NCBI RefSeq assembly: GCF_018320785.1
Contig: NC_054873.1
Coordinates: forward strand, 23,278,196 to 23,342,195
Direction: 5' to 3'
Origin: Cheilinus undulatus
Taxonomy: Eukaryota > Chordata > Actinopteri > Labriformes > Labridae
DNA length: 64,000 bases
Shown here: positions 5,601 through 61,935 of the stretch, piece by piece
Numbering within the stretch: position 1 is the stretch's first letter
Layout: each line of letters opens with the position of its first letter
Notes under the pieces: generated by a model
What the model was told of the DNA's origin: nothing
What the model saw: only the letters and a program-made list of their open reading frames with translations
The model's database searches: none
Program-made: the position numbers and the translations under genes

Positions 5601-8600
5601 AAATATCTCTGCACCAGGCATCTGGTTGAGAGTCGAGCAAATTGGTCTGCAAAGCTGTTTACCATGAAGCTATAAAGGTACATCTCGAAAAATTAGAATA
5701 TCATGAAAAAGTTCAATATTTTTTGTCACTCATTTCAGAAAGTCAAACCCAAATATTATATAGACTCATTACACAAAGAGTGAAATATTTCAAGTCGTTA
5801 TTTCTTGAAATGTTGATTATTATGGCTTACATATAAGAAAACCCAAATTCAGTGTCTCAGAAAATTAGAATATTACATAAGATCAATTAAAAAAAGGATA
5901 TTTTCAAAAGAAATGTCAGGCTTCTGAAAAGTATGTTCATTTCTATGCACTCAGTACTTGGTTGGGCCTCCTTTTGCATGAATTACTGCATAATGCAGCA
6001 TGGCATGGAGGTGATCAGCCTGTGGCACTGCTCAGGTGTAATGGAAGCCCAGGTTACTTTGATATCGGCCTTCAGGTCATCTGCATTGTTGGGTCTGGTG
6101 CCTCTCATCTTCCTCTTGACAATATCCCATAGATTCTCTATGGGGTTCAGGTCAGGCCAGTTTGCTGACCAATCAAGCACACTAACACCATGGTCATTGA
6201 ACCAGCTTTTAGTACCTTTGGCAGTGTGGGCAGGTGTCAAGTCCTGCTGGAAAAATGAAATCAGCATCTCCATAAAGCTTGTCAGCAGAAGGAAGCTTGA
6301 AGTGCTCTAAAATTTCCTGGTAGATGGCTGCATTGACTGTGGACTTCAGAAAACACAGTGGACCAACACCAACAGATGCCATGGCAGCCCAAATCATCAC
6401 TGACTGTGGAAACTTCACACTGGACTTCAAGCAATGTGGATTCTGTGCCTCTCCGCTCTTCCTTCAGACTCTGGGACCTTGATTTTCAAATGATACTCAA
6501 AATTTACTTTCCTCTGAAAAGAGGACTTTCGACCACTGAGCAACAGTCCAGTTCTTTTTCTCCACAGCCCAGGTAAGACGCTTCTGACATTGTCTCTGGT
6601 TCAGGAGTGGCTTGACACGAGGAATGCGACATTTGTAGCCCATGTCTGGGATTCGTCTGTGCGTAGTGGCTCTTGATGCGCTGACTCCAGCCTCAGTCCA
6701 CTCAACTTTCTATGAATATGCTTGGATACAGCACTCTGTAAACAACCAGCTTCTTTAGCAATGACCTTTAGTGGCTTACCCTCCTTGTGGAGGGTGTCAA
6801 TGACTGTCTTCTAGACATCTGTAAAGTCTGCAGTCTTCCCCATGATTGTGTAGTCTGACTGACCCAGACTGAGAGACCATTTAAAGGCGCAGGAAACCTT
6901 TGCAGGTGTTTTGAGTTAATTAGCTGATTAGGGTGTGACACCATGACTTTCCAATATTGAATTTTTTCACAATATTCTAATTTTCTGAGACACTGAATTT
7001 TGGGTTTTCTTATCTGTAAGCCATAATCATCAACATTTCAAGAATTAAAGGCTTGAAATATATTTCACTCTATGTGTAATGAGTCTATATAAAATATGGG
7101 TTTCACTTTCTGAAATGAGTGACAAAAAATTGGACTTTTTAATGATATTCTAATTTTTTGAGATGTACCTATATACGCTTTTTTTCATCAAATAACTATT
7201 TTAACACCCCTAAAAAATTAACATTTAACATTAATCAGTATTCTAACAACAAATTGTTCTGAAAAATCTGGGTTTAACAAAACATTTTTCAAGTGTAGCT
7301 ATTTTAACATCACAACCAGACCCACTGGTTAACATGGAAGTGATGGGGTTTAAGTACAATATTGCAGTCATTCAGCAGGGGGAGCTTTAAATATTTCGGC
7401 TTCACTCCCAGGTGGCTGTTTTTTTGTTCATCTTATATACAGTCTATGGTGTGAAGACCATGCAGTTTAGTCTGCATGGTTTTTTAGAAGAGATTACTAG
7501 TTCAAAAGCATCCCACATTTTTGATTTCTCATATTTTTTATTATTAACTAAAAAAATTACTGATATCATTTGCAACTACTTATAACACACACTTTTTGTG
7601 TCCGCAGCCGAGTGGTGTCTGCATTTGTGAAAAGCTGTGAACAAAAGCACTAAAGGAATAAAACAGATGTATTGGAGATGGCCAGTTATTTGTGTCAATT
7701 TTGCCCTGTATTCCTGTAAAAAGGCCTAAGGTCTTTCTCAGTATTGCAGTGAACTTCTTTGACACAGACCATTTATCCTTTTCTGGATGTGTTGCTTAAA
7801 AATGTGGGGCAAAAATAAAGAGTATACCCACTCCAGCATGCACCACTACACCCCCGGTCTTTTTTTGTCTACATCTGTAGATGAACTACAGTCCATCGTA
7901 TGAACTTTTCATATTTGGGAATTTAAGAGAACTTTTCTACTGTTTCAGGGAAATGTTCAATTTCCCACAATTCCTTCCCTTTGTAACAACATGTCATAAA
8001 AGACCTGTGGTTCTAGAGTCTGGAGAGACTTAAAAAGATGCATGCTCTCAACGTGTACACTCAGAAGCCCAGGTCAAACCACAGCACCTTACTTGTGGCT
8101 GTGCTTCAGCGTTTGCATGGTCACTTAAAAGCTCCCAGGTTATAACCTTTATAGCTTCCACCCACTGTAATTCAAATGAAATCTTATTATATAGAGAAAG
8201 TCTCTATTTTTGTTTATATCATAAACGCAGCACTCTCTTTTAACTTAAGCACAAAGTAAATAAAGCAAACTAGTGTGTGAAAAGTGCTACAGGGTTTGAC
8301 ACATTAAAGACACAGACAGCCACTCCTTTCCAGAGGTGGTTTAGACCAAAGCATATAATAGTCTGGTAGTATAATCCTCTAAAACCCCGTAGAAAGAAGG
8401 CACACTGTCATCCTGTACACACTGAGGCTGACTCAAAGCATGCTTTACCTTTCAGAATGTGTGCCTAAGTAATAAAACAAGCTAATTTGAGTGGCATGAC
8501 AACCAATTTAACAAAAAAAACATCGCTCACCCTAAATGTCCTCTTTTTATAGTCAAAGCGAGGATTTTAAAGGCTTCTGACTTCTTTGTCTTCTTTATTA

Positions 8601-21094: not shown

Positions 21095-23931
21095 ATGAAG
21101 CACCTGCTGTTTTTGGGGATTGCTTTTGTTGCAGTCCACATCAGCCAATCAATACCAGGTATATCAAGCTATTTTTACTTAAATTTTTTTTTTATTTTAA
21201 ATGGGGACCAAAAATGTGTCGGTAGGCCCAAGCTTTACTTTTTATCCTAGACTCTAGTGTGGGCCTGTCTGTAGTGGCTAAATATGTGTGTTATTGCTAT
21301 TGTCTTTGATTATTGGAATATTTGAGATATACTTTTTGCGTGGTTTTAAATGTTTTAACTTGGATGCAAATGGTCAGTTTCATTGAAACTCAGTCAGAGA
21401 GATAGAGCTTCACCTTTACTCCTCTCAGAGCAATATTGCGCTAATCCTGGGGATGACAAAATAAACCATAGGCAGAATCATGCAGTATAATATGGCGGCT
21501 GCTTTATTACGCCTGGTCAGGGAAAATTTAAATTTAAAGCGAGATCAACAGGCTTTATTATCAAAAATAGTTTGAGCTCATATAAGTCTGGACTCTAGCA
21601 GGATATAATTGTATGAAGTGTTTTACTGACTCCATGTCCTTGTTATAACTTGCAACTGCAGTCAGCAATGACTGTCCTTAGTCATCAACAAAAAAGAAAA
21701 GATGGTATTTAATGTACATTTACTCTGCTGGAAATGTTATTTACACACTTTTAATGAGTGTGCTAAGCTGACTGGATATTTCCTGCCTCTATAATTCCAA
21801 ACTTTTAACTGTGAGATCATTTCTGTCTGAGCCTGAGCAAAAAAAAAAAAAAAAATGCAACTATGTCTACCTGAAACTTCATCCTGCCTGAAACCCTGGA
21901 GATTATATATGTAAGGGGATGCAGTCAGTTTGTTGGGCCTTTTTCCCTCCTAAAGCAGGGAGTACAAAGGACCAAAGGTCTGATCCTCAGAGAACCGTTG
22001 AACACCATTTCCCTTCTGTTAAAGCCATGAAGGGCGGGACGACTGAAAATGTACCATAAATGACCTTTTTTATTGCCATCATAAAAACAGGGAGTGGGTT
22101 TTGTGCGACAACGTTAGTTAAACATTAGTTATGTGATCACAGGTATCTGCTTATGATTTCAACTGCTACGCCTATCATACGCCTATCAATGTCTGTGCAA
22201 TGGCTATCTTACCTGCTTGGTCTTTAAAAGGGTGACAAAATGATATGTGCTTAAAAACCAGAAAACCTCTTGCCAATAAAACTGAGTTTTCTTATGCTTA
22301 CACAATCCAACAGATTTCTGTCAACTGTCTGAAGATGAAGGAACTGGAAACCAATTTATCTTCTCTTTGTATTATGATGCCGACAACGACCGATGCAATC
22401 CTTTCTTCTACAAGGGTGAAGGAGGAAATGGCAACCGCTTTGTAAATGAGAGAGAGTGCATTAGAAACTGCTCATCTAATTCAGAGACACTCTACCCCAA
22501 GGATGGTAAGATGGTTTTATGTATTTAAAGTGAGAAAGACTTTTGATTTGATCATATTAGCTAACTCAGTACTTTTGGTTTGGTTGTTCCAAAAGTCTTA
22601 TGTGTCCTCAAAGAAGGCCTAACGGTATGTGAACCCAGTCTGAAAAAATAATGTCAGTATTGCCAACAGTTTTTCTGTGGACTTTGATCACGAACCAGCT
22701 AATGAGGTAGTGTTTATGGCCTTAAGGAGCATGAGAGGAAACTTGATCCAAACTGGTCAAACTGAGAGAGACAAGAGCCTCTTGCAGATTTAATAACAGA
22801 TCTTTGTTTTACCATCTAGTGAGGAGTAAACTCATGATGTTAAATTATCAATTACCCAAACTTATTGTTTTTTAAATAAGTATGTCAAACATCATTGCTC
22901 AATTCTTCAGGGGCTGCAGGACAGATACTGTCAGCTTAAAGCATTAGCAGTACACCACCCAGTGGTGAAAGATGGGGGTTACACAGGTCAGATAAAGGGA
23001 ATGAAAACACCTGCTCCTTACCTCTGATGAGGCTGTGATCATCTGATCCTCTGCTTTATTCATAAGTAGACAGTACCCTACTGAGGGGACTTAAAATAAT
23101 GATAAAGCTGATTGTGAGGATAATGTCTTCTCTACACAGTGACTGAGGCTTGCTACTTCAAAAAGGCTCCAGGTGGTTGTAATGGTCAGTATTTGAGATA
23201 CTACTACGATGCTGTCCATGACAAGTGCAAAAAGTTCTTCTGGACTGGATGCTTTGGAAACGGAAACCGGTTCCCTGACCATGACACCTGCAATGCCACA
23301 TGTGCCGGCATCCATGGTGAGCGCAAATACCCTTTTTATTCTTCCATAGTCCTGTTAGTATTAATGTCATTAAAGAAACATGTTTACACACCCACAAACT
23401 GGTGAGTTGTAATGAATATTGTCTGAAATCTATTTTTTTCTGAAACATGTTCATGTTATTTTTTATTTCCTAGATGACAGAGATGACCCAGAGGAGGATG
23501 AGCCAGACACTCCCATTGGTCTGTAAAAAAAAAAGGAACCCTCAATGCCATATTATGCTTTAATGAGAGACAACACATGGTCTTCATTTACAACAGTGGT
23601 TCCCAAACATTTTCCTTTTCACTGTTGTCCCCCTTACAGCAATCATCTGTGGAGTTTTGCTCGGCATCATTCTTGTGGCTGTCATTATAACAGGGATTCT
23701 CTTGGCCGTCAAATCAAAGTAAGACCATTTGTCTTTGTGCTGAGCCTAATATGAAAAGGATGATTAAGTCTGACTGAGAGGTGGAAATTCAAACAGTACC
23801 ACTTACCTTCTAATAACCCTAAATATTCTGACTTTTTCAGGAAAAAGGGCTCCAAGAAGAAGTCAGGAGGGAAAAGCCAAGAGGCCCCGGCTGAAACACC
23901 TCTTCAGGAGCAGAGGATTGAAATGTCATAA
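21095..23931 (+). CDS. Kunitz gene A: two-Kunitz type I membrane protein, 215 aa
   Basis: Exons 21095-21158, 22314-22505, 23140-23316, 23474-23518, 23640-23718 and 23841-23931 give 648 nt in one frame, all introns at GT-AG. Parts in order: signal peptide (MKHLLFLGIAFVAVHISQS); Kunitz 1 (C24 to about residue 74); Kunitz 2 (from C90); an acidic stalk (DDRDDPEEDEPD); one membrane segment (AIICGVLLGIILVAVIITG, about residues 160-180); a Lys-rich cytoplasmic tail ending EMS. Kunitz 1 lacks C14 (Gly) and C38 (Glu), so only the 5-55 and 30-51 disulfides can form. Kunitz 2 keeps six cysteines, with Asn at P1 (GGCNG). No basic P1 exists, so trypsin inhibition is unlikely. If the donor at 23519 is not used, translation stops after PIGL (23524-23526), giving a soluble 161-aa form. 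I do not recognise a named orthologue. Confidence 0.87.
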
Positions 23932-24099
23932 AACAGCATGTGGAGTTTTTACAACTTGTTTTTGTATTCTCGGTTAAACATATCAAATGATTATATGACT
24001 GATGTTCAATTTAGTTTTGTACTGACAGTTGTAGGATAGACTTTTGATCAATTTTGTACTTTTCAGCTTCACAACATGTCTGAGGTTAGTTCATGAAGT

Positions 24100-25360
24100 C
24101 ATTTCTTTCCCTGGAGACTTCTTCACGGTTTTCTCTCAATCCCAAATTTAAATGGTCAAACTGTACTGAAAAGATACAAACCCACACATTTTGAGTATTT
24201 TTAAGGACAAAATACCTCATACTACTACTACTACTACTTAAGTTTTCTTTTTCTAACTTTCAGTCATGAGGATTTGTCATATGTACATAACAGATTTGGC
24301 TTTGGACTGTTGGTAAGAGTGAAAATGTGTGGATCAAAAAGTGAAAACCAGTGGATCAAGGAAATAGTGATAGACTTTTATTATAAATTTCAGACATCCC
24401 ATAGCTCTAATAGATAATCAAGGAAATTACAGGATATTACTGTTTTGAATTGCAAACTTAATAGATGCAAACCACTTACAAAATTGTAGGAACAAAATTT
24501 ATTGGCTGGTAACAGGAGCAAACCTGCACCATTTCTGAGCTCTTCTGTGTGCACAATCACCTGACGTGATTTCTGTAATCTCATGATCATGTTACCATTC
24601 AAAATATAACTGCATCATCACCTGACTCAAGAATTTGCTGATAAAATGTCTGAAGCCTCCAAGAGACACTGACATTCAAACTTCAACATACTGTATTTGG
24701 AGCTGTTTTTTTAGAAGTGCTGCCCAGTGAGCCCACTCTCTCTGTTATTATGTTTTCCTGCTCAGCTATATGAATGTCTTATTTTAGGCTCTAAAAACAT
24801 TAAAGTGTCATAAACCACCTGTCCCATTTTCTCACATTCTCATTATATCATCTTGTTCTCATACTATTGCTTTGTTCGTCAGATTTAATATGGAAATGAT
24901 CTTTTCAAAAAGATGTACAAATGCATTTTTATTTTCAAAAGTGTCACCTTTTTTAGATCTAAAAAGAAAAGCACCCTTCAGGATGCTCTGTCAAGACAAA
25001 ACATGAATTATGACTGAAATGTAAACTTGATATCAAGTAAGGAAAGTTATATAGCAATACAAATGCAGCATCACTGGACAGCTGCTGCATTTCTATTTGA
25101 ACAAGAATCTCCTGAGCTTATTCCAGTGATGATGATGTTAACACTGGAGCTGATATTGATGGTATGACTGCTGTAAATCACACCTCTTGTTTCTCCTTTC
25201 ACCCCTTTACACACTTTGAGGTTCTGAGTGCACTACAGGCCTTAGACTCTGCGAACCCCAATTACTACACATCACATTAAGACATATTCAATTTTTTTCA
25301 TTTTAACAGGAAGATTTCCTAAAATCTTTAAATCTTCATGTGTGGTTATCTTTAATTAAA
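24100..25360. other. 3' UTR and intergenic region after Kunitz gene A
   Basis: The first part aligns with the 3' flank of gene B (36.55-36.7 kb) and with the relic at 25.83-26.1 kb, so it is 3' UTR. An ATTAAA variant polyadenylation signal lies near 24797. Nothing else recognised. Confidence 0.45.
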
Positions 25361-25369
25361 GTGGTGCAA

Positions 25370-25815
25370 GAAAAAGATTTGAATAATTACTGCCCAATTT
25401 CCAAAATTGTCTGGTAAAACTCATTGAATCTCTGGGTAATACCCGACTAAAATTTTTTCTCTCATATAACCCTGGTACTTAACCCATATCATTCAGGCTT
25501 CAGAATACAAACCATAGCACTCTGATGATATAATATCGGCATTAGATAGGAGGTGTTTTTGTGCAGCACTTTTTATAGACCTGTTAAAGCATTTGATGCT
25601 GTTGGTCATCACCTTCTTTCAAAGAAACTGCAATAGGGTTGGATGAAAATGTATACCTAGTCTCAGGATTGCCTGTCTGACAGGTGTCATTGTGTTAAAA
25701 TAGCTTGTGCCAAATCTGATTTTTTTTTCCCTCATAAATAGAGGCATGCCCCAGGGGTCAGTTCTGGGCCTTGTGCTCTACAAAGTCTATAAATGATATT
25801 GTTTCTTGCAATGGT
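25370..25815 (+). mobile_element. LINE reverse-transcriptase fragment
   Basis: Broken frames carry non-LTR reverse-transcriptase signatures in the right order: a SGFR-like motif near 25495, then FIDLLKHL (a changed F-x-D-L-S-K-A-F) near 25575, then GMPQGSVLG at about 25744-25770. It is an old internal piece with both ends missing. It ends close to the Kunitz 3' UTR relic. Confidence 0.75.
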
Positions 25816-25825
25816 TATCTTAGAA

Positions 25826-26100
25826 AAGCACGTCACATTGATATCGCCATGTGGAGTCTTTACCATTTTGTTTTTGTGTTGGCTGTAAAACATGTTAAAG
25901 AATTATAAGACTAATGCTTAACTTAGATTCTTCTTTCTCTGTTATTATGTTTTCCTGGTCAGCATAATGTGAATCTTTTATTTCAGGCCCAAAGACACAA
26001 AAGTTTCAAAAAAACAATTTATCACATTTGTTATTATATCAAAATAAACTCATGCTAATGCTTTGTACTCATGATTTAATATAATAAAATAGAAATCAAA
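25826..26100 (+). pseudogene. Relic 3' end of a third Kunitz gene copy
   Basis: The run from AAAAGCACGTCACATTGATA onward aligns with the end of the last exon and 3' UTR of gene A (from 23930) and with the matching part of gene B (from 36546). Later shared words include CTCTGTTATTATGTTTTCCT near 25940, matching gene A near 24750. No Kunitz exon precedes it; a LINE fragment does. I infer that an extra gene copy once lay between A and B and lost its body. Confidence 0.6.
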
Positions 26101-26244
26101 TAATACAAAAAAAATTATGGATTACTTTTTTTTTTTTAAAGGTGTCACCATTAGGGAAGTAAAGGTCCAAAAGTCAGTAATGACAACCCATTCCTGCTGT
26201 AGTTTACAACCATCATTCATTCCAGCACACACACCAGCAGCGAG

Positions 26245-29200
26245 ATGAAGCACCTGCTGTTCTGGGGGATTGCTTTGGCTTCATTTCACATCAGCAAATC
26301 AATTCCAGGTATAGTAATCTACTTTAATTTTTATTTAAAGTGGGGATTAAAAAACTTGTTTATGGGCTAAAACTTTACTTTTTACTCTAGAGACCATGGG
26401 ACCATAGTATGGACTTGTCTCGTATGGCTAAATATGAAGTGTTTCCTTGGTGATGTTTCTGTTATTGTACTCAGTAACTAGAAACATGGGGGTGGGGGGT
26501 TATAGTTTGTGTGATTTTAAATGATTTCACTTGAATGCTAATAGTTTTAATAAAAACTGGTCGGACAGTTAAAGCTTAGCTCTGTACAAGGTGATACTGC
26601 ACCTAAATTAGTAGTTATAAAATAAACAGTAGGTGGAATCATACAGTACGATATGTAGCTGCTTTATTACTCATGACAAGGGATAAAAATCAACCAGAGA
26701 TCTATAGACCTGATTACCAAAACTAGTTTAAGCTCATAGAAGTCCCAAAATAGCAAACAAAAGAATTTTATTTCATTGACTCCATGTTCTTAGTTGTCAA
26801 CATAATGAGGAGGATACTATTTAATGTACACTTACTCTGCTTGAAATGTTATTTACACTCTGCTAATGATTGTGCTAAGCTGAGTGGGCATTTCCTACCT
26901 CTATAATTCCAAACTGTAAGCCGTGAGATCATTTCTGTCTGAGACTGAGCAAAAGAACTGAAACTATGTCAACCTGAAACTTCATCCTGCCTGAACCTTG
27001 CAAATTATCTGTAGGAAGATGTAGTCAGTTTGTTAGCCCTCTTTTTCCTCCAAAATCAAGGGCATTCGGCATAAAATGTATGGTCCCATTCCTCTTCGGT
27101 TATAATCATGAAGGGCAGCATGACCTAAAGTGAACTATTAATGACCCTTTATATTGTCATCACAAAAACAGGGAGTGGGTATTGAGTGACAAGGTAAATT
27201 GTTAATTCCTTATGTAATCACAAGTCTATTTATGACTGCAATTGAAAAAAACAATCATACAATGTGCAGGTGCACTCAAAGCGTTGCAGAGGGCATCTCA
27301 TCGTGTTTTCTGTTGGTCTTTGGATGTACTTTCAAAAAGGAAACCAAAAAAAGCATAAAAATAAAGTAAAATGCCCTCAGGGTCCAATCCAGTGGGAAAA
27401 AAACATGATAGTGCTGACTGACACGATGAATCTTGATAAATTGTCTTCTAGAAAACATGTGTCCAATACTGTATGAGTACGTGAATACCAGTCTGACAGT
27501 TTCACATGTGAGACAATGTACAATCCCCAACTCCATAAAAGTTGGGGCATCGTATAAACTGTAGACAAAAACAGAATGCAATCACTTGCAAATCAAAAAA
27601 TGTGATCTATATGATAATGTGTCCCTGTGGTAAAGTTTATATTGGGGAAACATCCCGCACACTCAGAAAAAGGATCACAGAACACAGAAGTGTTATTAAA
27701 AGAAATGACGCCACCAGCCCATTTTAATGATTTTTTGGCACCCTATGTCCTCTTTATTTTTCTTAGGTATAGAAGTCATTAAACCTAGTTTGAGGGGTGG
27801 CAACATACATCTTGTTAGGAAAAAGAGAGAAGCATTTTGGATTTTTTAAATTCAAAACGTTTATTTCCAGGGGGATGAATGAAGATTTTTCTATCAATGA
27901 GTTTTTATAATTATCTCTTAACCGGGGATTTTTATTAGGTTTTTAACTCTAAAAGTGTTTATCTCCAAACTAACGTTCTATGTTTTCCTTTTATCTGTTC
28001 CCCTTTAGATGTTTTTACTGATGTCCTTTAGCCTTTCATAAAATGTTTTTACAAAATGCTTTTATAAAATGTTTTACCTCTTCCAAAGATAGCACTTTAA
28101 AATGACCCCAGAATGCACTTTAACTCCACCAAGTGGTCATTTCCTTGTACTGTTTCAACACATTTTTTGTGTCTGTTTCCCATTAGACACTCCCTGTGCC
28201 TCTTTGGCAGTGTCTTTTGGTCATAAACCAGATGATCACTTAACCAACCCATTGGTACTGTTACCCCATTGGCTGGTATACATATGTGGCTGTTTCTGAT
28301 TGGTTAGAATTGTGGAGTTTTGTAAGATTTTTTTTCCTGTTTTAACACTACCCTATTTAAATGTTGCTTACAATGTGGTTCTTGATGACCCTGATGAAGG
28401 CTACATGCCGAAACACGTCGGTCTAATAAAGTCGTTCCTTAAACTACAAGTGTTGCTGGAGATTTCTGTTCTCTTCAAATCTCATAAACACATATTTTAT
28501 TTACAACAGAATATAAACAACACATCAGATGTTGAAACAGAAACATTTTACCAATTGATGAAAAATATAAGCTCATATTGACTTTGATGGCAGAAATACA
28601 CCTCAAAAGAGTAGGAGTGGCAACAATATGCTGGAGGAGCATTTTGCAACTAATTAGGTTCATTCACAGGTCAGTAACATGACTGGGTATAAAAGAAGCA
28701 TTTCATAGAGGCAGAGTCTCTGAGACATTGTTCCTATCAGTCATGAATATTAGATACATAGATAGCCAAACAATACAGTACTGCAGTACTGTTAATATAT
28801 TCTTACTTCAGTAAATGTACTACAGTAGTGTATAACAGAGATATAAAATCTAAGTCTTACCCAGAGTTTCTGGTTATTTAACTACAAATATTTGCCTTTT
28901 ATTTATCTTTATTTATTTATCTATTTGCCACTATTCGTGCTGACACCCCACAGCATACAGTAAGTTTCCTTTGAATTATTTTTGCCCCTGCCTCTCAAAC
29001 ATCCAAAGTCCTCCACTGATACAATGACTGTAGTGGTTATCTTACCTTCTTATTCTCTAAAAAAGGTGAAAAAATGTGTGCTTTAAGAACCTGAGCATCT
29101 GACCCTGCAAAATTAAACTGATCATTTTCTCATACATACACAATCCAACAGATTTCTGTCGACTGCCTCAAGATGAAGGAAGTGGAAACCAGTTTATCTT

Positions 29201-32200
29201 CTCTGTGTATTATGATGCCACCAATGACCGATGCATACCTTTCCTCTACAAGGGTGAAGGGGGAAATGCCAACCGCTTTACAAATGAAAGAGAGTGCATT
29301 AGAAACTGTTCAGCTAATTCAGAAAAACTCTACCCCATGGACGGTAAGATGATTTTATGTATTCAGAGTGAAGGGGGAAATGGGGGGGATTTATCATTTG
29401 CATTGCCAAGTCATCAACTATTTTTGGTTGTACAAATGTCTAATATAGGGCCCTCTAGTAGGTGAACCCAGTCTGAAAGTAAAATAAAATACAATACAAT
29501 AAAATAAAAAAACTATTACTGACCATGAACCAGCTAAATCAGAAGTGTTTTTTGGCCTAAACGAGAATGAACGGACACTTGATTGTTGGGCCAAGCTGGC
29601 CAAACTGACAGAGCCTTCCTCTGGTCTGTTTTTAGAAAAAAAAGAGCCCTCTTTTACTATTAAATCTCTGAAATTGTTTTAAAAAAATAATATTCAACAC
29701 CTCAGGGACTGTAGGACAGACACTGTCAGCCTTAAGTACTGGCAATATAAAACCCAGCAATGAAAGATAGGGATAACAGAACAGATAATGTGAATGAAAA
29801 CAACTGCTCCTTTTAAGTTGTGGTCATCTATAAGCTGATCATGAGGATAATGTCTTCTCTATACAGAGACTGAGGCTTGCCACTTGAAAAAGGCTCCAGG
29901 TGGTTGTAATAGTCTGTATTTGAGATACTACTACGATGCTGTCTATAACAAGTGCAAAAAATTCTTCTGGACTGGATGCTATGGAAATGGAAACAGGTTC
30001 CCTGACCATGAAACCTGCAATGCCACATGTGCCGGAACCCATGGTGAGTGCAAATACCTCTACTTTATACATCGTTCTCATTGCTATTAATGTCATTAGG
30101 TACATGTAGTGCTGTACATCAGAGATGTAGTAGGTTTTTAAAAGTTTTATATTAAATATTCAAAATAAGATAGCCAAAATTCTAATTATAATATTTAAAT
30201 AGCCAAACTGATATAAAAAGATGCTCTTTTTCTTATTTTTGCCCCTGCCCCCCAACATCCTAAGTCCTCCACGGGTACAATGACTGTAATTGTTAATGGC
30301 TGCTTATTCTCTAAAAAGGTGACAAAATTATGTGTGCTTAAAAACCTGAGCATCAGCCCCTGCCAAATTAAACTGATCATTTTCTCATACATACACAATC
30401 CAACAGATTTCTGTCGGCTGCCACAAGATGAAGGTACAGGACACAGCTTTATCTTTTCTGTGTCTTATGATGCCGCCAACGACAGATGCATACCTTTCCT
30501 CTACAAGGGTGAAGGGGGAAATGCCAACCGCTTTACAAATGAGAGAGAGTGCATTAGAAACTGCTCTGTTAACTCAGAGAAACTCTACCCCATGGATGGT
30601 AAGATGATTTTATGTATTTCAAGTGGAAAAGAAAAACAGTTGAAATTTATTCCTTTATTAACTATTTTGGGTTGTTAAAATGTCTAAAAGATGGCCTACA
30701 AGTTGAACCCAGTCTGAAAAAATATTCTTGTTCCTGCCAACTGTTGCTGACCATGAACCAGCTAACGAGGTGGTGTTTATGGCCTTTAGGAATATGAAAA
30801 GAAACCTGATTATTGAGCCAACCTGGTCAAACTTTAAGGGGCTTATTGGGACTGTGTTTTTATGTTTTAGATAACAGACCCCTCTTTTACTATCAAATCT
30901 CTGTAATTACTTTGACAAATTACTGCCCAATCCCTCAGGGGCTGCAGGACAGACACTGTCAGCCTTAAGTACTGGCAAAACAGCAACAAGAATGAAAGAT
31001 GGAGATAACATAGAACTGATAATGTGAACGAAAACTCCTGCTCCTTTTAGGTTGTGGTCATCTAATCCACTGCTTTATTCACAGTGCCTTACTGAGGTGA
31101 CTTCTTATGATTGTAAAATTAATCATGAGGATAATGTCTTCTCTTTACAGAGACTGAGGCTTGCCACTTTAAAAAGGCTGAGGGTGGTTGTAGTGGTCAG
31201 TATCTGAGATACTACTATGATGCTGTTCATGACAAGTGCGAAAAATTCCTCTGGACCGGATGCTTTGGAAATGGAAACCGGTTCCCTGACCATGAATCCT
31301 GCAAAGCCACATGTGCCAGCACCCCTGGTGAGCACAAATACCTCTACTTTATACATCGTCTTAATTGCTATTAAAGTCATTAGGTACATGAAGTACTGTA
31401 TTACAGAGATGTAGTAGGTTTTAAAGGTTTGATTTAAAATATCAAATATTTGAAACAAGATAGCCAAAATCTAGATATTAATAATTACATAGCCAAAATA
31501 AAAAGGTACCTTTTCGATTTTTTTCTGCCCCTGCCCCTCAAACATCCTGAGTCCCCACTGATACAATGCTTATTCTCTAAAAATGTGATAAAATGTGTGC
31601 TTTAAGAACCTGAGCATCTGACCCTGCAAAATTAAACTGATCATTTTCTCATACATACACAATCCAACAGATTTCTGTCGACTGCCTCAAGATGAAGGAA
31701 GTGGAAACCAGTTTATCTTCTCTGTGTATTATGATGCCACCAATGACCGATGCATACCTTTCCTCTACAAGGGTGAAGGGGGAAATGCCAACCGCTTTAC
31801 AAATGAAAGAGAGTGCATTAGAAATTGTTCAGCTAATTCAGAAAAACTCTACCCCATGGACGGTAAGATGATTTTATGTATTCAGAGTGAAGGGGGAAAT
31901 GGGGGGGATTTATCATTTGCATTGCCAAGTCATCAACTATTTTTGGTTGTACAAATGTCTAATATAGGGCCCTCTAGTAGGTGAACCCAGTCTGAAAGTA
32001 AAATAAAATACAATACAATAAAATAAAAAAACTATTACTGACCATGAACCAGCTAAATCAGAAGTGTTTTTTGGCCTAAACGAGAATGAACGGACACTTG
32101 ATTGTTGGGCCAAGCTGGCCAAACTGACAGAGCCTTCCTCTGGTCTGTTTTTAGAAAAAAAAGAGCCCTCTTTTACTATTAAATCTCTGAAATTGTTTTA

Positions 32201-35200
32201 AAAAAATAATATTCAACACCTCAGGGACTGTAGGACAGACACTGTCAGCCTTAAGTACTGGCAATATAAAACCCAGCAATGAAAGATAGGGATAACAGAA
32301 CAGATAATGTGAATGAAAACAACTGCTCCTTTTAAGTTGTGGTCATCTATAAGCTGATCATGAGGATAATGTCTTCTCTTTACAGAGACTGAGGCTTGCC
32401 ACTTGAAAAAGGCTCCAGGTGGTTGTAATGGTCAGTATTTGAGATACTACTACGATGCTGTCTATAACAAGTGCAAAAAATTCCTCTGGACTGGATGTGA
32501 TGGAAATGGAAACAGGTTCCCTGACCATGAAACCTGCAATGCCACATGTGCCGGAACCCATGGTGAGTGCAAATACCTCTACTTTATACATCGTTCTCAT
32601 TGCTATTAATGTCATTAGGTACATGTAGTGCTGTACATCAGAGATGTAGTAGGTTTTTAAAAGTTTTATATTAAATATTCAAAATAAGATAGCCAAAATT
32701 CTAATTATAATATTTAAATAGCCAAACTGATATAAAAAGATGCTCTTTTTCTTATTTTTGCCCCTGCCCCCCAACATCCTAAGTCCTCCACTGGTACAAT
32801 GACTGTAATTGTTAATGGCTGTTTATTCTCTAAAAAGGGGACAAAAATATGTGTGCTTAAAAACCTGAGCATCAGCCCCTGCCAGATTAAACTGATCATT
32901 TTCTCATACATACACAATCCAACAGATTTCTGTCGGCTGCCACAAGATGAAGGTACAGGACACAGCTTTATCTTCTCTGTGTCTTATGATGCCGCCAACG
33001 ACAGATGCATACCTTTCCTCTACAAGGGTGAAGGGGGAAATGCCAACCGCTTTACAAATGAGAGAGAGTGCATTAGAAACTGCTCTGTTAACTCAGAGAA
33101 ACTCTACCCCATGGATGGTAAGATGATTTTATGTATTTCAAGTGGAAGAGAAAAACAGTTGAAATTTATTCCTTTATTAACTATTTTGGGTTGTTAAAAT
33201 GTCTAAAAGATGGCCTACAAGTTGAACCCAGTCTGAAAAAATATTCTTGTTCCTACCAACTGTTGCTGACCATGAACCAGCTAACGAGGTGGTGTTTATG
33301 GCCTTTAGGAATATGAAAAGAAACCTGATTATTGAGGCAACCTGGTCAAACTTTAAGGGGCTTATTGGGACTGTGTTTTTATGTTTTAGATAACAGACCC
33401 CTCTTTTACTATCAAATCTCTGTAATTACTTTGACAAATTACTGCCCAATCCCTCAGGGGCTGCAGGACAGACACTGTCAGCCTTAAGTACCGGCAAGAC
33501 AGCAACGAGAATGAAAGATGGAGATAACATAGAACTGATAATGTGAACGAAAACTCCTGCTCCTTTTAAGTTGTGGTCATCTAATCCACTGCTTTATTCA
33601 CAGTGCCTTACTGAGGTGACTTCTTATCATAAAATTGATCATGAGGATAATGTCTTCTCTTTACAGAGACTGAGGCTTGCCACTTTAAAAAGGCTGAGGG
33701 TGGTTGTAGTGGTCAGTATCTGAGATACTACTATGATGCTGTTCATGACAAGTGCGAAAAATTCCTCTGGACCGGATGCTTTGGAAATGGAAACCGGTTC
33801 CCTGACCATGAATCCTGCAAAGCCACATGTGCCAGCACCCCTGGTGAGCACAAATACCTCTACTTTATACATCGTCCTAATTGCTATTAAAGTCATTAGG
33901 TACATGAAGTACTGTATTACAGAGATGTAGTAGGTTTTAAAGGTTTGATTTAAAATATCAAATATTTGAAATAAGATAGCCAAAATCTAGATATTTATAT
34001 TTGCATAGCCAAAATAAAAAGGTGCCTTTTTGATTTTTTTCTGCCCCTGCCCCTCAAACATCCTGAGTCCCCACTGATACAATGCTTATTCTCTAAAAAT
34101 GTGATAAAATGATTTGTGCTTAAAAACCTGAGCATCTGACCCTGCAAAATTAAACTGATCATTTTCTCATACATACACAATCCAACAGATTTCTGTCAAC
34201 TGCCTCAAGATGAAGGTACAGGACACAGCTTTATCTTATCTGTGTCTTATGATGCCGCCAACGACAGATGCATACCTTTCTTCTACAAGGGTGAAGGAGG
34301 AAATGCCAACCGCTTTACAAATGAGAGAGAGTGCATAAGAAACTGCTCTGTTAACTCAGAGAAACTCTACCCCATGGATGGTAGGATGATTTTATGTATT
34401 TCAAGTGGAAACAACATGGGATAAATCATGAATTTTTCAACTATTTTTGGTTTCCCAATTGTCAAATGTATCCTCAAAGATTCCCTACAAGTTCATCTGT
34501 GGACTTTAACCATGAACAAGCTAATGAGATAGTGTTTATGGCCTTAAGGAGCATGAAAGGACACTTGATCACTGAGTCAGCCTGGTCAAATTGAGAGAGC
34601 CTTTTTAAAATCTGTTTCTTTTTGTAAATAACAGACTCTCTTTTACCATCAAATCTCTGTAATTTCTTTCAAAAATTCTTGCACAATTCCCCAGGGGCCG
34701 CAGAACAGACACTGTCAACCTTAAGTACTGGCAATACACCACCCAGTGGTGAAGATGGGGGTAACACAAAACAGATAAAGAGAATAAAAACACCAGCTCC
34801 TTTGAGATCATCTAATCCTCAGCTTTATTCATAAATAGATAACACCCTACTGACCGGACTTTTATGATGATAAAGTTGATCATGAGGATAATATCTTTTC
34901 TACACAGCGACTGAGGCTTGCCACTTTAAAAAGGCTGAGGGTGGTTGTAGTGGCCAGTATCTGAGATACTACTACAATGCTGTTCGTGAAAAGTGCAAAA
35001 AATTCCTCTGGACCGGATGCTTTGGAAATGGAAACAGGTTCCCTGATTACAGAACCTGTAAAGCCACATGTGCCGGCACCCCAGGTGAGCACAAATACCT
35101 CTGCTTTATACATCGTCCTAATTGCTATTAATGCCATTATAGCAACATGTCTTTAAATGTTCACAAACTGATAAATGACACTAGTAAAAATATTGTATGC

Positions 35201-35275
35201 AATGTGTTTTTTTTATTTTTTTGTGTTGTGTTTCCAGGTGGTGGTGATGACTCAGACACCCTTGATGGTCTGTAG
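26245..35275 (+). CDS. Kunitz gene B: ten-Kunitz secreted protein, about 648 aa
   Basis: Exons: 26245-26308 (signal peptide MKHLLFWGIALASFHISKS); then alternating 192-nt and 177-nt Kunitz exons at 29152-29343, 29867-30043, 30407-30598, 31151-31327, 31671-31862, 32386-32562, 32926-33117, 33667-33843, 34189-34380 and 34908-35084; last exon 35238-35275, ending GGL-stop. All introns are phase 1 GT-AG; total 649 codons. Domains 1, 3, 5, 7 and 9 have Gly at position 14 and Glu at 38 instead of Cys. Domains 2, 4, 6, 8 and 10 have all six cysteines and Asn (2, 6) or Ser (4, 8, 10) at P1. The membrane and tail exons of gene A exist downstream only as decayed relics, so the product should be secreted. 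Intron 1 was enlarged by a Penelope-like element nested in a DNA repeat. A partial transcript using fewer domains is possible. Confidence 0.8.
27595..28475 (+). mobile_element. Penelope-like retroelement, 5'-truncated fossil
   Basis: A short frame near 27600-27727 contains a GIY-YIG endonuclease-like segment (VIYMIMCPCGKVYIGET, then RKRITEHRS), which is the C-terminal domain of Penelope-like reverse transcriptases. The 3' part ends with a hammerhead-ribozyme-like motif, as known for this family. CAAATC occurs at both junctions (27589-27594 and 28476-28481). At about 880 bp it is only the 3' end of the element, and it is not intact. It lies in intron 1 of Kunitz gene B. Confidence 0.8.
28381..28432 (+). 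ncRNA. Hammerhead-ribozyme-like motif (type I, minimal helix III)
   Basis: Core CTGATGA at 28391-28397 and GAAA at 28410-28413. Helix I: GACC 28387-28390 pairs with GGTC 28420-28423, and CTT 28381-28383 can pair with AAG further out. Helix II: GGC 28399-28401 pairs with GCC 28407-28409 around a TACAT loop. Helix III is the very short ACACGT type, and the predicted cleavage would follow C28419 (GTC). There is one extra A before helix II. Hammerhead motifs of this compact form are known in Penelope-like elements; activity here is unknown. Confidence 0.65.
29060..34100 (+). repeat. Tandem duplication of a 2.52-kb four-domain unit in gene B
   Basis: Copy 1 (about 29060-31580) and copy 2 (about 31580-34100) are nearly identical, introns included. 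Equivalent exons are offset by 2519, 2519, 2519 and 2516 bp. The intron block starting GGGGGGATTTATCATTTGCA and the GCAATATAAAACCCAGCAAT block are the same in both. Domains 9-10 are a further, older copy. Identity in introns points to very recent duplication or gene conversion, or to an assembly duplication. Confidence 0.85.
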
Positions 35276-35534: not shown

Positions 35535-35613
35535 CAATCAAACTGAGTTTTACTCAGTATCATTCTAAATGCTGTCATTATAACAGTGGTTGTATTTTCC
35601 TTATATCAAAGCA
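35535..35613 (+). pseudogene. Decayed transmembrane exon of Kunitz gene B
   Basis: Aligns with gene A exon 5 (23640-23718): CAATCAAACTGAGTTTTACT matches CAATCATCTGTGGAGTTTTG, and TGCTGTCATTATAACAG matches GGCTGTCATTATAACAG. Relative to gene A it has a single-base deletion and substitutions that bring in stops, and the splice donor context is altered. It cannot supply a membrane segment. Confidence 0.7.
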
Positions 35614-36160: not shown

Positions 36161-36454
36161 CTGAAATGGCTTTAAGTTGGCAAATGGGTGTTAAAAGTGG
36201 CAAAAAAGGATGGAAATAGTGGTGAAAAGCTTGACACACTTTTCAGCACCAAAATGTGGTAACTGTTAGCTAGGATGCTAGCACTAATGCTACTGCCTGC
36301 TTTCATTGAAATTGTATATAATCTACAACTGGGGAGGGGCCATTCAATAGGTTTTTCAGGGGCCCAGCCAATTCTGTGGCAGGCCTGCTGATGTGGTTGA
36401 AATTCAAACAGTACAACTTTACTTTTAGATAACTCTCAGTATTCACATCTTCAT

Positions 36455-36545
36455 GAAAAAGGGCTCCAAGCAGAAGTCGGGACAGAAAATATTAGAGACC
36501 CAGGCGGAATCATCTCCTCAGCAGCAGAGGATGGAAATGTCATGG
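36455..36545 (+). pseudogene. Decayed last exon (cytoplasmic tail) of Kunitz gene B
   Basis: GAAAAAGGGCTCCAAGCAGA aligns with the start of gene A exon 6, and CAGCAGAGGATGGAAATGTC with its end. The acceptor AG before it has become AT (TTCATG instead of TTCAGG), and the TAA stop is TGG. It is therefore a relic, matching the loss of the membrane exon upstream. Confidence 0.7.
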
Positions 36546-36599
36546 AAAAGCATGTCACCTTGATATCAATAGGTGGAGTCATTACTTAAAAAAAAAACA

Positions 36600-49025: not shown

Positions 49026-51572
49026 TTTTTTTACAGTGCTTAACAAATTTATTAGACCACATGTCATATTTGTCTCAAAGACCACCCAGCATCATGAAGT
49101 GCTTTAATGCGGACTCTTTCATTTTCAGTGAGCTCTCCCCATTTTGAACAGGAATGAGGGATTTCAAACTGAATTCACCCAAGTTTGAGCCGGCTCACTG
49201 GGCTTCTCTGAGAAGTCAGATATTAATGAAGCATAACATTCAACCACTAAAACTCACTTTTCTCTTCAGGAATGCAAGTAAATAACTATAATTTGACATA
49301 TTAATCAAGAAATAATAATGTGCTTTACTGTTTTTGCAGTTTTTGTGTAAATGAGTAAATTTGAAAATTCATGGATAACAATAATAATTATAATTTAGCA
49401 TTAAAAACATCATTTCTGTTAAAGAGCTTCTACATATTGGTGTATTAACCATTGCAGAAACATAAAAAATGATTTTGGTAATTACCAATGCTGTTAATTT
49501 AGGGCAGCTGTGGCATAAACCTTAGTTTGGTTAGAGTTAGGGGGGTCTAATAAATCTGTTAAGCACAGTATATATTTATTTATATAATAAAAAATGTAAA
49601 AAGAAAAAAAAAAATCCGATGTCTGGCCCTCGGCTTTCTGTCCTTGAAATATTTTGGCCCTTGGGGAAAAAGTAATTGGGGAACCCTGACCTACACAGTG
49701 CACATTTTACTAACTTCTAATTTCAGGCAGACTTTACAGCAGTCAAATCAAGAAACAGAAAAAAGTGGTTTTGGTTTACATCAAACAACAAAGAAGTGGC
49801 AGCATGAAGTGCTTCAGGTCACATGTCTTAACATTGCATATCTTGCAAACATCACCATCACATTATAAAACAGTTCAGCTCTAATCTATGTTTTGTCCAA
49901 CAAGTCCAACAACACCTCAGGGAGGCTAGAAATTAAGCTTTCAAGTTATTCTTGTATTTGTATTGCTGATGTTGCAAAGCCTCTCGTCGTTGTGAATCTG
50001 TATAATACAATGGTTTAAGAGTAGCACAGGTTTTATGTAAATGATCGTATTTGTCTGCCTCCTTCTACACTGTAAGTCGTCAAATGGTGAAGTTGTGAGT
50101 GTATTAAGACCATGAGAAAGAAATAGCTTAAAAAGTTAATAATGGTATCAGTAGATATTTCATGGGCTGTAAATATCGGTCTATCAGTTGTAAATGTATA
50201 TGCAAATAAGTAAGTGGAGTTTTAGGACGGACCAACAAAGCCACATAAGCTGAAGTCATTTTCTTTGTACATCCTTATTCCTTAAACTTTAAAGTTTGTC
50301 TTAAGGACTGAAGTTTTAAGTCTAACCTACATTTATATAATGATTTCAAGACTGGTATTAGCTTGAATGAATTTGTAAATATCAGATACTGTCAGAAACC
50401 CAACATTCATCTATACTAATGATTTTTGTTTGTTTTTAGCCTGAAAATTCATTACCAGACAGCTGCCTGTATGACCTTTCTGCTGTTGTGGTTCATCATG
50501 GATCTGGGTGAGTGAATGAAGAGTCACAAAATAAAATAGAAATGGAGAAGTTGAAACCAGTATGAGCTTTTATTTTTAGATTTATTTCCCCTTTTTAAAA
50601 AGCACACATGCAATACTTTAGTTTTGCAGGATCTTTTACTTGTGTGTTTACCTCTTGCTGATGTATGATGATGATGTTCATATGCATGCTTTTTTCCCTT
50701 TTTCACAGTAGCGGACTTAACTGTTGTATAGCTACAAAAGCCAACACTGGATCATAAATCCAGATATAACCATTTGCCAACCAGCTCTGCCTACCACAGA
50801 TGGCTGTCATTCATCCTGTCAAAACTAATGTGATCCAATTTGTTGCAAAGCCTAGTTGACAGCTGCTTTTTAAATATTAATGCAGCCGCTAAATGCTGAA
50901 AGGCATAAAGCTGAGAGTCCTAGAAAATGCATTGTTTGGTAAGAACTGTCAATCAAACAGCTGTTGTTTCACCCTTAGCCTCTAGGTGGCCATGTTGCAC
51001 TGCTGCTGCTGTTGAGCTGAACGTGTCCCCCTAACTTCAGCAGCAATAAAGTAAATGTTAAAAGTAACCATACAGCACAAGGTGAGATAAATGTGTGTGT
51101 TCACAGGGTTGGATCAGGACATTACACAGCATATGGCAGCCACGAGGGCCGCTGGTACCACTTTAATGACAGCACGGTGACTCTGACCACTGAGGACACA
51201 GTGAGGAAGGCCAAGGCCTACATCCTCTTCTACGTGGAAAGGACCAACCAGGTGGCCTCAGACAAGACTGTCACCATCAGTATGGCCACAGAAAATCCTG
51301 CAGTGAACAGTGTTTCCTTAGTAGTGTGTCAGGAGGAGGCTGTGGCGGACGGAGCTCCCACAGATATGGATTTGATGGATGAGGCATCCTCACACATAGA
51401 AACAGTGGATGTACCAGCTCCTGATAATGCAGCATTGGGAAATGTGGGCGAAGACGAAGCTGACTTACATGAAGCTGACACAGCTTTAATGGAGGCTGCA
51501 GCAGATAGCGATACCTCAGACAAGGCGGCAACAGAGGAAGCAAGCCAAGCAGTGCAAGCGGTTACACAATGA
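37884..51572 (+). CDS. usp3: Ubiquitin carboxyl-terminal hydrolase 3, 15 coding exons, 621 aa
   Basis: Deubiquitinase that in other vertebrates removes ubiquitin from histones H2A and H2B in the nucleus. Exons: 37884-37971, 39749-39809, 40267-40404, 40755-40838, 41909-41990, 42072-42151, 43846-43959, 44304-44417, 44575-44724, 44980-45086, 45365-45445, 45560-45678, 45795-45908, 50440-50507 and 51107-51572; all GT-AG, frame closes. The N-terminal UBP zinc finger starts MECPHLNSN (ligands in CCN-VC, CLTC, HCGR, CMDC and CYRC). The USP domain has catalytic C168 (NLGNTCFMN), H472 (GSGHYTAY) and D488 (HFNDST), and a CLIC/CHKC zinc ribbon. Residue numbering at the nucleophile equals human USP3. After YILFYVERT, where human USP3 soon ends at 520 aa, it runs on for about 95 acidic, Ala-rich residues. 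Exon 10 has a tandem TAGCAG acceptor. Confidence 0.97.
39179..39213. repeat. (AACC)n microsatellite
   Basis: Eight or so CAAC units in usp3 intron 1. The rest of that intron (37972-39748) holds AT-rich sequence; 38.5-39.03 kb looks like degraded MITE material, ending ATACCCAACCCTAG. Confidence 0.75.
40989..41488. mobile_element. hAT-like MITE in usp3 intron 4
   Basis: Terminal inverted repeats GGGGTGGGAATC at the left and TTCTCCCACCCC at the right, each followed inward by CG/GATAT-rich words (GATATTGCGATAT, ATATCGCGATAT). Identical 8-bp flanks ATTTATTA lie at 40981-40988 and 41489-41496. About 500 bp, no coding sequence. Confidence 0.75.
41497..41780. repeat. Dispersed fish repeat with (CA)n tract
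   Basis: Begins AATCCCCAAAGGGAAATAAA, wording seen at the 3' end of fish retroposons, then a (CA)n run at about 41562-41605, then a segment ending GTCTGAGCTACTGTTGCCCC that recurs in fish genomes. Ends not determined. Confidence 0.45.
42860..43596. mobile_element. Non-autonomous DNA element in usp3 intron 6
   Basis: Ends CAGGGTTCATGTGGAT (left) and the complement of CAGGGTTCCTACAC (right) form short inverted repeats. The left part contains the AAAAAGTCTTAAATAATCTT wording of a common fish repeat. About 737 bp, no coding potential. Confidence 0.5.
44255..44297 (+). repeat. Retroposon-like tail and (CTAT)n abutting the usp3 exon 8 acceptor
   Basis: TTTCCTTTGGAATTAATAAA followed by four CTAT units is the 3' tail wording of a common fish repeat. 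It stops 6 nt before the exon 8 boundary, so the tetranucleotide forms the polypyrimidine-like tract of that 3' splice site. Confidence 0.65.
47397..47702. mobile_element. hAT-like MITE in usp3 intron 13
   Basis: Left end TAGGGCGGGGCAATCTGATG and the complement of the right end (TAGGGCTGAACAATTTTGAG) form inverted repeats. A second right-end-like piece (TCGTTCAGCCCTA) sits at about 47797-47872, suggesting another fragment of the same family. Confidence 0.5.
48071..48581. mobile_element. hAT-like MITE in usp3 intron 13
   Basis: Left end TAGGGGTGGGTAAAAATATT, right end GCAATACCCAGCCCTA; the inside is rich in ATCGATT words that also form inner inverted repeats. Flanks CTTGTTAA (48063-48070) and CTTGATAG (48582-48589) share 6 of 8 bases, fitting an aged 8-bp duplication. 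Confidence 0.65.
48935..49032. repeat. Compound microsatellite (TC)n-(TA)n-(T)n
   Basis: A TC run of about 30 bp, then a TA run of about 40 bp with one TTT break, then about 25 T. Open frames crossing it (48729-49147) read as poly-Ser/Leu and Ile/Tyr and are not genes. Confidence 0.9.
49034..49568. mobile_element. Tc1/mariner-type MITE in usp3 intron 13
   Basis: Inverted repeats of about 25 bp: CAGTGCTTAACAAATTTATT at the left, and the complement of CTGTGCTTAACAGATTTATT at the right, each bordered by TA (49032-49033 and 49569-49570). 535 bp, no transposase. It sits inside a TA-rich microsatellite, which supplied the TA target. Confidence 0.75.
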
Positions 51573-60578: not shown

Positions 60579-61597
60579 TGCCTCACAGAGGTATTATATT
60601 GTAACTTCAAGGTGGTAGTTCTAGTTTAAGCTATGACAGACTTCTAGTAAAAATCTAAAGATATCAACACCTGTTTTTGATATCAAAAATAATGGTCCAA
60701 GGCATCCAACAAAAGCCAAGTTGTCAAAAACATTTGCAACAAAACATTGCCAATATTTTTTAGTAATATTAAAATAGTTCTCTTCCTCCCACTTACAGCA
60801 TCTCTGGGGTTAAAATTATGACTCTTAATATGATGTTTTAAAGGTCTGGCAGCCTAAGATACTATAGATCATTAAAAAAGAGATTTGGTTCTTTAAAACA
60901 TATTAGAAGTTTAGTTTGACAACCATAATTGAAAAGGCAAACTGCCTTACTCCAAACACTATTCAGACATTTAAAATGCTCTGTTTCTTCTAATAGTGTG
61001 TGTCTGATGCTGTTTTTCCACATAAAAGTTTAATTAGTTGGCTAAAGATCATGAAAACTGCATCTACTCCCTTTCCCACACTTAAAAATGATGAATGGGA
61101 AGACAGCCTTGTGGTGTCAAACTGCAGTACATCATTCGGCAGAGTGAAGGTCAAACATCCAACCAACTGAACAAAAATACAAAAACACGTTTCTAAGACT
61201 CCACAACATGTGAACATTTAACTCCCGTACTGAAGGATTTATGTGCTGCAGTCCCCTTCAGAGGTGTTTAGTTTTTTGGTATCTGTATCTGAGAACTAGG
61301 CCAGGCTAGTGTAAACATCTGGCTCAGTCCAGTGCTTGCTGCCTGTTGAGATCCATGACAGATGGAAAGGGAGCGTATGGCTCAAACACTTCCATCTTTG
61401 ACTCTACCGGCAGTTGTCTTCCTAAAATAGCCCGCACTCCACGGCCTTATATGTGCAGGCCTGCAGCATGTGCCTGAGGAGGCATCATGTATCTAGGCCA
61501 CACAATACGAGCTGCAGGCTCATTGTTGCTGCTCACCAGCAGGCCTATCACCCCCCTCAGGGACCAGGCCTGTCTTTCTGTTTAGTGTCAGCTCAAC

Positions 61598-61935
61598 ATG
61601 CATCTCACTGAGCTCAACCGCGAATGTCTCCTTCACCTTTTCTCCTTTCTGGATAAAGACAGTCGGAGGAGTTTGTCCTTCACCTGTCATCAGCTGCGTG
61701 AGGTCTTCATGGACCCTCGCCTCTGGAATCTACTTCACTTCAGCTCCCCGTGTGAGCTGAGAAGGGACAACTTTGTGCTGGGACCCTCACTGCGTTACCT
61801 GACTGTTTGTTGGTACTCCAGCCGAGTCCTGCAGGTGTGCAACATCGAGGATTGGCTGAAGAGCTCGTTTCAGAGGGATATCTGCAGTAAACATGAACGC
61901 TTGGTCAGCAATTTCCTGGCCCAGGTCTGCCTCAT
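61598..61935 (+). CDS. fbxl22: F-box and leucine-rich repeat protein 22, exon 1 (partial gene)
   Basis: Substrate-recognition subunit of an SCF E3 ligase, known in other vertebrates from the cardiac sarcomere Z-disc. The ATG begins [20 protein letters not shown], the F-box (about residues 1-45), followed by [37 protein letters not shown] and SNFLAQVC, closely matching the mammalian protein. The exon ends CTCAT before a GTGAGT donor at 61936. No second exon is visible up to 64000, so the rest lies beyond the window. It follows usp3 on the same strand, as in mammals. Confidence 0.93.

Follow-up and report, generated by a model that had tools for sequence, protein, structure and literature searches.

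The DNA considered here, referred to below as the window, is a stretch of 64,000 nucleotides from the labrid fish Cheilinus undulatus (NCBI RefSeq assembly GCF_018320785.1, contig NC_054873.1, positions 23,278,196 to 23,342,195 of the forward strand). Positions 21095-35275 of the window, from the start codon of one gene (gene A) to the stop codon of the next (gene B), encode two proteins built from alternating kinds of Kunitz domain. When both strands of the window were scanned for the Kunitz cysteine-frame pattern, 12 domains were found on the plus strand, from 22319 to 35071; one further match, on the minus strand at 42265, looks unrelated. With the cysteine frame of BPTI as the reference for numbering, the six odd-numbered domains have cysteine at positions 5, 30, 51 and 55 only, in exact register, and all six carry Gly at position 14 (codon GGA) and Glu at position 38 (codon GAA). 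The six even-numbered domains all have the full set of six cysteines, Cys14 and Cys38 included. The four-cysteine and six-cysteine classes alternate, and the spacing is that of BPTI. The disulfide pairs of Kunitz domains are described as 5-55, 14-38 and 30-51 (PMC6270371). The Cys14/Cys38 pair that marks a canonical six-cysteine domain is thus present in 6/6 even and 0/6 odd domains, and all six odd domains have the frame of the two-disulfide subtype represented by conkunitzin and anntoxin, with Cys5, Cys30, Cys51 and Cys55 present and positions 14 and 38 both changed. A preliminary description of the locus, made by reading the letters, had reported just this pattern, and the scan and the codons bear it out.

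In a profile search of the genome all 12 score above the 21-bit curated cut-off of PF00014, and hmmscan gave 52.4 bits for one odd exon and 59.8 bits for one even exon. Every domain occupies a single exon, preceded by AG, followed by GT and in phase 1 on both sides, and AG/GT junctions bound all five introns of gene A and all 11 of gene B. The odd domains share an Asn-Cys-Ser overlapping the last cysteine (BPTI 54-56; 6/6), and three of the six even domains have Asn-Ala-Thr at the last cysteine; both are possible glycosylation sites.

The predicted exons of gene A (21095-23931) join into an open frame of 215 residues, consisting of a signal peptide, an odd domain, an even domain, an acidic linker, a membrane span and a basic tail. 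The signal peptides of both genes were judged by eye, and the membrane span by its hydrophobic sequence. If left unspliced, the acidic exon runs straight into an in-frame stop (23474-23535), which would give a secreted product of 161 amino acids, and a choice between secreted and membrane forms of gene A is possible.

Gene B (26245-35275) likewise reads as an open chain of exons, here for 648 residues: a signal peptide, five odd-even pairs and a short acidic C-terminus. Its first exon falls within a stretch that duplicates the 5' region of gene A (68% over 1238 columns). Gene B most likely codes for a secreted protein, because, downstream of it, the sequence that corresponds to the membrane-span exon has been frame-shifted by a deletion, has lost its hydrophobic run and has a donor changed from GT to GC (the preceding AG is still there), and because the copy of the tail exon beyond it has not kept its preceding AG. 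Directly upstream of gene B, the 3' region of gene A recurs at 25848-25929 as a 77% copy, which the gene duplication may have left behind.

The repeats within gene B argue that it grew by tandem duplication, with one step recent. A super-repeat of 2519 bp pairs unit 1 with unit 3 and unit 2 with unit 4, and these twins are near-identical, with intron differences of 0.2-3.5%; between gene A and gene B, the introns that separate odd from even exons differ by 24-33%. Outside the window, the 1.17-Gb genome (46 contigs) yielded 37 Kunitz domains, for a total of 49 that is a lower bound, and every one of the 37 has both Cys14 and Cys38. Close kinship of the locus to another locus of the same genome was not found, the best matches by E-value being 39% identical for an odd domain and 42% for an even one. 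Among 42 pattern stretches each from prokaryote and viral collections, no relative was confirmed.

In a tree of the 49 domains, those of the window included, the odd domains form one clade (support 100/99) and so do the even domains (99/96). The same two clades were recovered after masking of columns 14 and 38 in rows of regular length and removal of the row with the longest branch (96/80 for odd, 99/96 for even). Both trees rest on few columns, and they differ on the deeper branching: in the first, a fork with support 96/97 groups the even domains with 22 other domains and leaves the odd domains outside, while in the masked tree a weak branch (67/86) has odd and even domains on the same side. 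Because each class is a single clade and gene B was built by tandem duplication, the six odd domains are not independent cases; six independent losses of the 14-38 bond were rejected in view of the single odd clade and the twin units. Six in six therefore describes the domains well but says little about how many events took place. The reading that best suits the trees is a single ancestral loss of both cysteines, most likely before genes A and B separated, and copied thereafter.

Selection was gauged from the ratio of nonsynonymous to synonymous substitution rates (dN/dS), pooled over six pairs among four distinct domains per class, with twins left out. The mean is 0.36 for odd domains (bootstrap 0.16-0.90, with 1.7% of replicates at or above 1) and 0.41 for even domains (0.20-0.74; 0.7%), and non-twin odd pairs inside gene B lie at 0.14-0.22. 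Of the 15 pairs computed per class, the even twin pair B2-B6 has a ratio of 1.15 on 5 changes. Nonsynonymous divergence is lower than intron divergence in each of the six pairs tested, three odd and three even (Fisher p between 1.5e-3 and 8e-11). None of the six odd exons has a stop, a frameshift or a lost splice site, and Gly12, Phe33, Gly37 and Gly40 are invariant in all six odd domains. Both domain classes are under purifying selection. The view of the preliminary description, that this is a maintained two-domain module rather than decay, is upheld by the odd ratio, the low nonsynonymous divergence and the four invariant residues; that description had named a ratio near 1 in odd domains as the outcome that would speak against it, and the ratio found is not near 1. 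In view of the dN/dS values, the open exons and the comparison with introns, the idea that the odd domains are pseudo-domains was rejected.

Two positions are unusual in both classes and speak against inhibition of trypsin in the usual way. At P1 the odd domains have Asn or His and the even domains have Asn or Ser; Lys or Arg occurs at P1 in 0/12 of the domains here, versus 20 of the 34 other domains of the genome that could be counted by position (the count excludes three of the 37 whose spacing is irregular). At position 36 all six odd domains have Lys and all six even domains have Thr, so that the Gly found there in 29 of the 34 others is absent from all 12. Among the same 34, Asn at P1 and Lys36 never occur, and His at P1 occurs once. 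Losing the 14-38 bond need not prevent a Kunitz domain from binding a protease, judging from two known proteins, because frog anntoxin, with the same four-cysteine frame, is described as having protease-inhibitory activity (PMC3721222) and BPTI with both Cys14 and Cys38 replaced by Ser is listed in the PDB as solved in complex with trypsin (2fi3). A Rhodactis rhodostoma inhibitor is also listed with two disulfides, which ones being left unstated in the account cited (PMC3721222). The proposal in the preliminary description that odd domains probably bind a non-protease target as a consequence of losing this bond was not supported, given anntoxin and 2fi3. Lys36 together with Asn or His at P1 gives better hints of a non-trypsin role for odd domains than the loss of the bond; the hint from Lys36 is weakened by an Arg that anntoxin is reported to have at the place taken here as 36 (PMC6274936). 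Chymotrypsin- or elastase-like proteases are possible targets of the even domains, because BF9, a Kunitz protein with Asn at P1, is described as a chymotrypsin inhibitor and Ser at position 36 is reported for NACI (PMC6270371).

Structure prediction gave a Kunitz-like model for the odd domain, with a predicted local distance difference test score (pLDDT) of 79 (the best of five, which ranged from 58 to 79) and a predicted template modelling score of 0.59. Its best match is the C5 domain of collagen VI, at a root-mean-square deviation (rmsd) of 0.9, and other Kunitz structures match mostly at 0.9-1.5.

The coordinates of the features at the locus are collected in Table 1. Elsewhere in the window, an exon matching ubiquitin hydrolase (UCH, PF00443) lies downstream of the locus on the plus strand at 51021-51569, followed on the same strand by an F-box match at 61586-61936, and a fragment of a DDE_3 transposase lies on the minus strand at 5986-6306.

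Table 1. Features of genes A and B and of the sequence downstream of gene B (positions in the window)
Feature	Positions	Strand	Basis or remark
Gene A exon 1, signal peptide MKHLLFLGIAFVAVHISQSIP	21095..21158	+	by eye; donor GT
Gene A odd Kunitz exon (G14/E38)	22314..22505	+	phase 1-1; C5-C55 at 22319-22471
Gene A even Kunitz exon (six Cys)	23140..23316	+	phase 1-1; domain 23151-23303
Gene A acidic linker exon	23474..23518	+	exon-chain reading
Gene A membrane-span exon	23640..23718	+	by hydrophobic sequence
Gene A basic cytoplasmic tail exon and stop	23841..23931	+	exon-chain reading
Gene B exon 1, signal peptide MKHLLFWGIALASFHISKSIP	26245..26308	+	by eye; within copy of gene A 5' region (26124-27244)
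Gene B unit 1 odd exon	29152..29343	+	C5-C55 at 29157-29309
Gene B unit 1 even exon	29867..30043	+	domain 29878-30030
Gene B unit 2 odd exon	30407..30598	+	C5-C55 at 30412-30564
Gene B unit 2 even exon	31151..31327	+	domain 31162-31314
Gene B unit 3 odd exon (unit 1 twin)	31671..31862	+	C5-C55 at 31676-31828
Gene B unit 3 even exon	32386..32562	+	domain 32397-32549; amino acids differ from unit 1 domain at BPTI 16, 17, 34, 39 only
Gene B unit 4 odd exon (unit 2 twin)	32926..33117	+	C5-C55 at 32931-33083
Gene B unit 4 even exon (unit 2 twin)	33667..33843	+	domain 33678-33830
Gene B unit 5 odd exon	34189..34380	+	C5-C55 at 34194-34346
Gene B unit 5 even exon	34908..35084	+	domain 34919-35071
Gene B last exon, acidic C-terminus and stop	35238..35275	+	exon-chain reading
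Decayed counterpart of gene A membrane-span exon	35535..35610	+	sequence comparison
80% copy of gene A tail region	36395..36555	+	tail-exon copy begins at 36455

These data suggest the following history, to which as a whole we would give about an even chance of being right. A module of two phase 1-1 exons, a four-cysteine and a six-cysteine Kunitz domain, would have formed the membrane-anchored gene A. A duplicate of that gene, gene B, would then have lost the membrane exon and multiplied the module tandemly to five copies; its ten-domain product is most likely secreted. The locus looks like a case in which a membrane protein became a secreted multivalent one through the decay of one exon and tandem duplication. 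The odd domain would have lost its 14-38 bond once, before the split of A and B, and under purifying selection it would since have stayed a folded Kunitz domain with two disulfides, carrying Gly14, Lys36 and Glu38. It would now serve, most likely, as a structural or docking partner and no longer as a trypsin-type inhibitor, and the even domain, with its intact 14-38 brace and Asn or Ser at P1, would carry out recognition, possibly of chymotrypsin- or elastase-like proteases.

Several results weigh against this proposal and against a bolder form of it. The odd domains of gene A and gene B differ from each other with dN/dS of 0.48-0.71, and the upper bootstrap bound for the odd class reaches 0.90. 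No significant difference in constraint was found between odd and even domains (Fisher p=0.13, from one pair of units). The even domains also lack Gly36 and need not be inhibitors, and the predicted even model is poor (pLDDT 70.5, with matches at rmsd of about 4). The recent twins speak for the proposal and also gave rise to the bolder form; their four exons (738 coding bases) have seven coding differences, four of which change amino acids. All four changes separate the even domains of units 1 and 3, with none in the two odd pairs or the other even pair, and they fall in the binding loops, which are given as 11-19, 34 and 36-39 (PMC6270371). Taken alone, such a clustering has a probability of about 0.005 by chance (0.005-0.006 with our own contact sites, 11-13, 15-19, 34-37 and 39, and 0.003-0.005 with the published loop, applied afterwards), in a test that was post hoc and for changes that one short gene-conversion tract could explain. 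Over the whole tree the excess of changes at loop sites is not significant (6/17 changes in odd domains, p=0.37; 8/21 in even domains, p=0.25). The picture of a "frozen brace plus evolving head", in which the odd domain without its bond is an invariant docking partner and the even loops of a secreted five-headed array change fast after each duplication in an arms race with foreign proteases, seems to us improbable.

The higher ratios between genes A and B, and the upper bound just mentioned, are what one might expect if the odd bond had been lost because the domains no longer matter, with tandem duplication merely spreading the state. This is highly unlikely: the non-twin odd pairs inside gene B have ratios of 0.14-0.22, nonsynonymous change lags behind intron change, and all six odd exons are intact. 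The near-identity of the twin units raises a different concern, namely that they are a duplication made in assembly and that gene B really has three pairs; units 1 and 3 differ at only 1 of 523 bases of one intron. However, the twin copies differ at about 30 places over the whole stretch, four of them the amino-acid changes in one even exon, and an artefact of this kind is very unlikely.

A more serious rival to the docking role is that the odd domain is a working two-disulfide inhibitor of the anntoxin kind, with a loop that binds a protease through Asn or His at P1, so that genes A and B would both be double-headed. The activity of anntoxin and the trypsin complex of doubly substituted BPTI speak for this, as do the Gly14 reported for arenin (PMC6274936) and the Gly at the matching place in anntoxin (PMC3721222). 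The anntoxin stretch Tyr-Arg-Gly-x-Gly-Gly-Asn-Gly-Asn-Arg-Phe also resembles Tyr-Lys-Gly-Glu-Gly-Gly-Asn-Ala/Gly-Asn-Arg-Phe of the odd domains, in a register that we infer and that is one residue off BPTI numbering, and the odd P1 and P1' residues vary between unit types. The rarity of the odd P1 residues and the absence of Lys36 in the other domains of the genome argue the other way, as does the lack of change in odd domains of the recent twins, and this reading is possible but rather unlikely. By analogy with two-disulfide conkunitzin-S1, whose block of Shaker channels is described as equal whether or not a third disulfide is added (PMC3721222), the odd domain might instead be a ligand of a channel or receptor, and its better matches in sequence and fold include conkunitzins. 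Yet that likeness is the likeness of the Kunitz fold as a whole, gene A is by its sequence a membrane protein, and nothing found ties the locus to venom or skin secretion; the chance that this is the explanation seems very small. The docking role remains the reading that we favor for the odd domains.

Among known proteins, HAI-2 (SPINT2) has a signal peptide, two Kunitz domains, a membrane span and a short tail, with six cysteines in both domains. By sequence, gene A shares this layout of signal, two Kunitz domains and membrane span and gene B does not; HAI-2, for its part, is not known to have anything like the gene B array. The nearest solved fold to the odd model, the C5 domain of collagen alpha-3(VI) (1knt/2knt), has in common with it a Leu-Pro-x-Asp-Glu-Gly-Thr stretch, but in the alignment it has Cys at the places of both 14 and 38.

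Loss of the second and fourth cysteines as a pair is already known, from conkunitzin-S1, from domain 8 of MLT-11 and from frog skin polypeptides. Anntoxin and arenin, as described, resemble the odd domains in keeping Cys5-55 and Cys30-51, lacking 14-38 and having Gly at 14 (PMC3721222, PMC6274936), and anntoxin further shares a basic residue where position 36 is taken to lie, followed two residues on by Gly-Gly-Asn; both are described as single-domain secreted skin polypeptides, in which nothing alternates with six-cysteine domains. Conkunitzin-S1 of cone snails is similarly reported to have two of the three disulfides, the missing one being CII-CIV (14-38), but it is a single-domain venom peptide and a channel blocker (PMC3721222). 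Our guess is that the frame shared with conkunitzin and anntoxin reflects convergence. C. elegans MLT-11 resembles gene B in being a ten-Kunitz protein with a signal sequence, whose Kunitz domain 8 is without the second and fourth cysteines (PMC13181417); in the account given there, however, one domain of the ten is affected and not alternate ones, and other domain types are present as well. Regular alternation of the two classes in a tandem array, or its occurrence in both a membrane-anchored and a secreted gene, was not reported, as far as titles and abstracts show, in the literature found on four-cysteine, fish or multi-domain Kunitz proteins, which was covered in part and with no query aimed at alternation. 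The locus supplies twelve natural domains of one fold, with and without the 14-38 bond inside one protein, so that matched domains can be used to test what the bond contributes to binding and stability. What sets it apart from these known systems is the fixed alternation of the two classes through a tandem array, in both a membrane-anchored gene and one whose product is most likely secreted.

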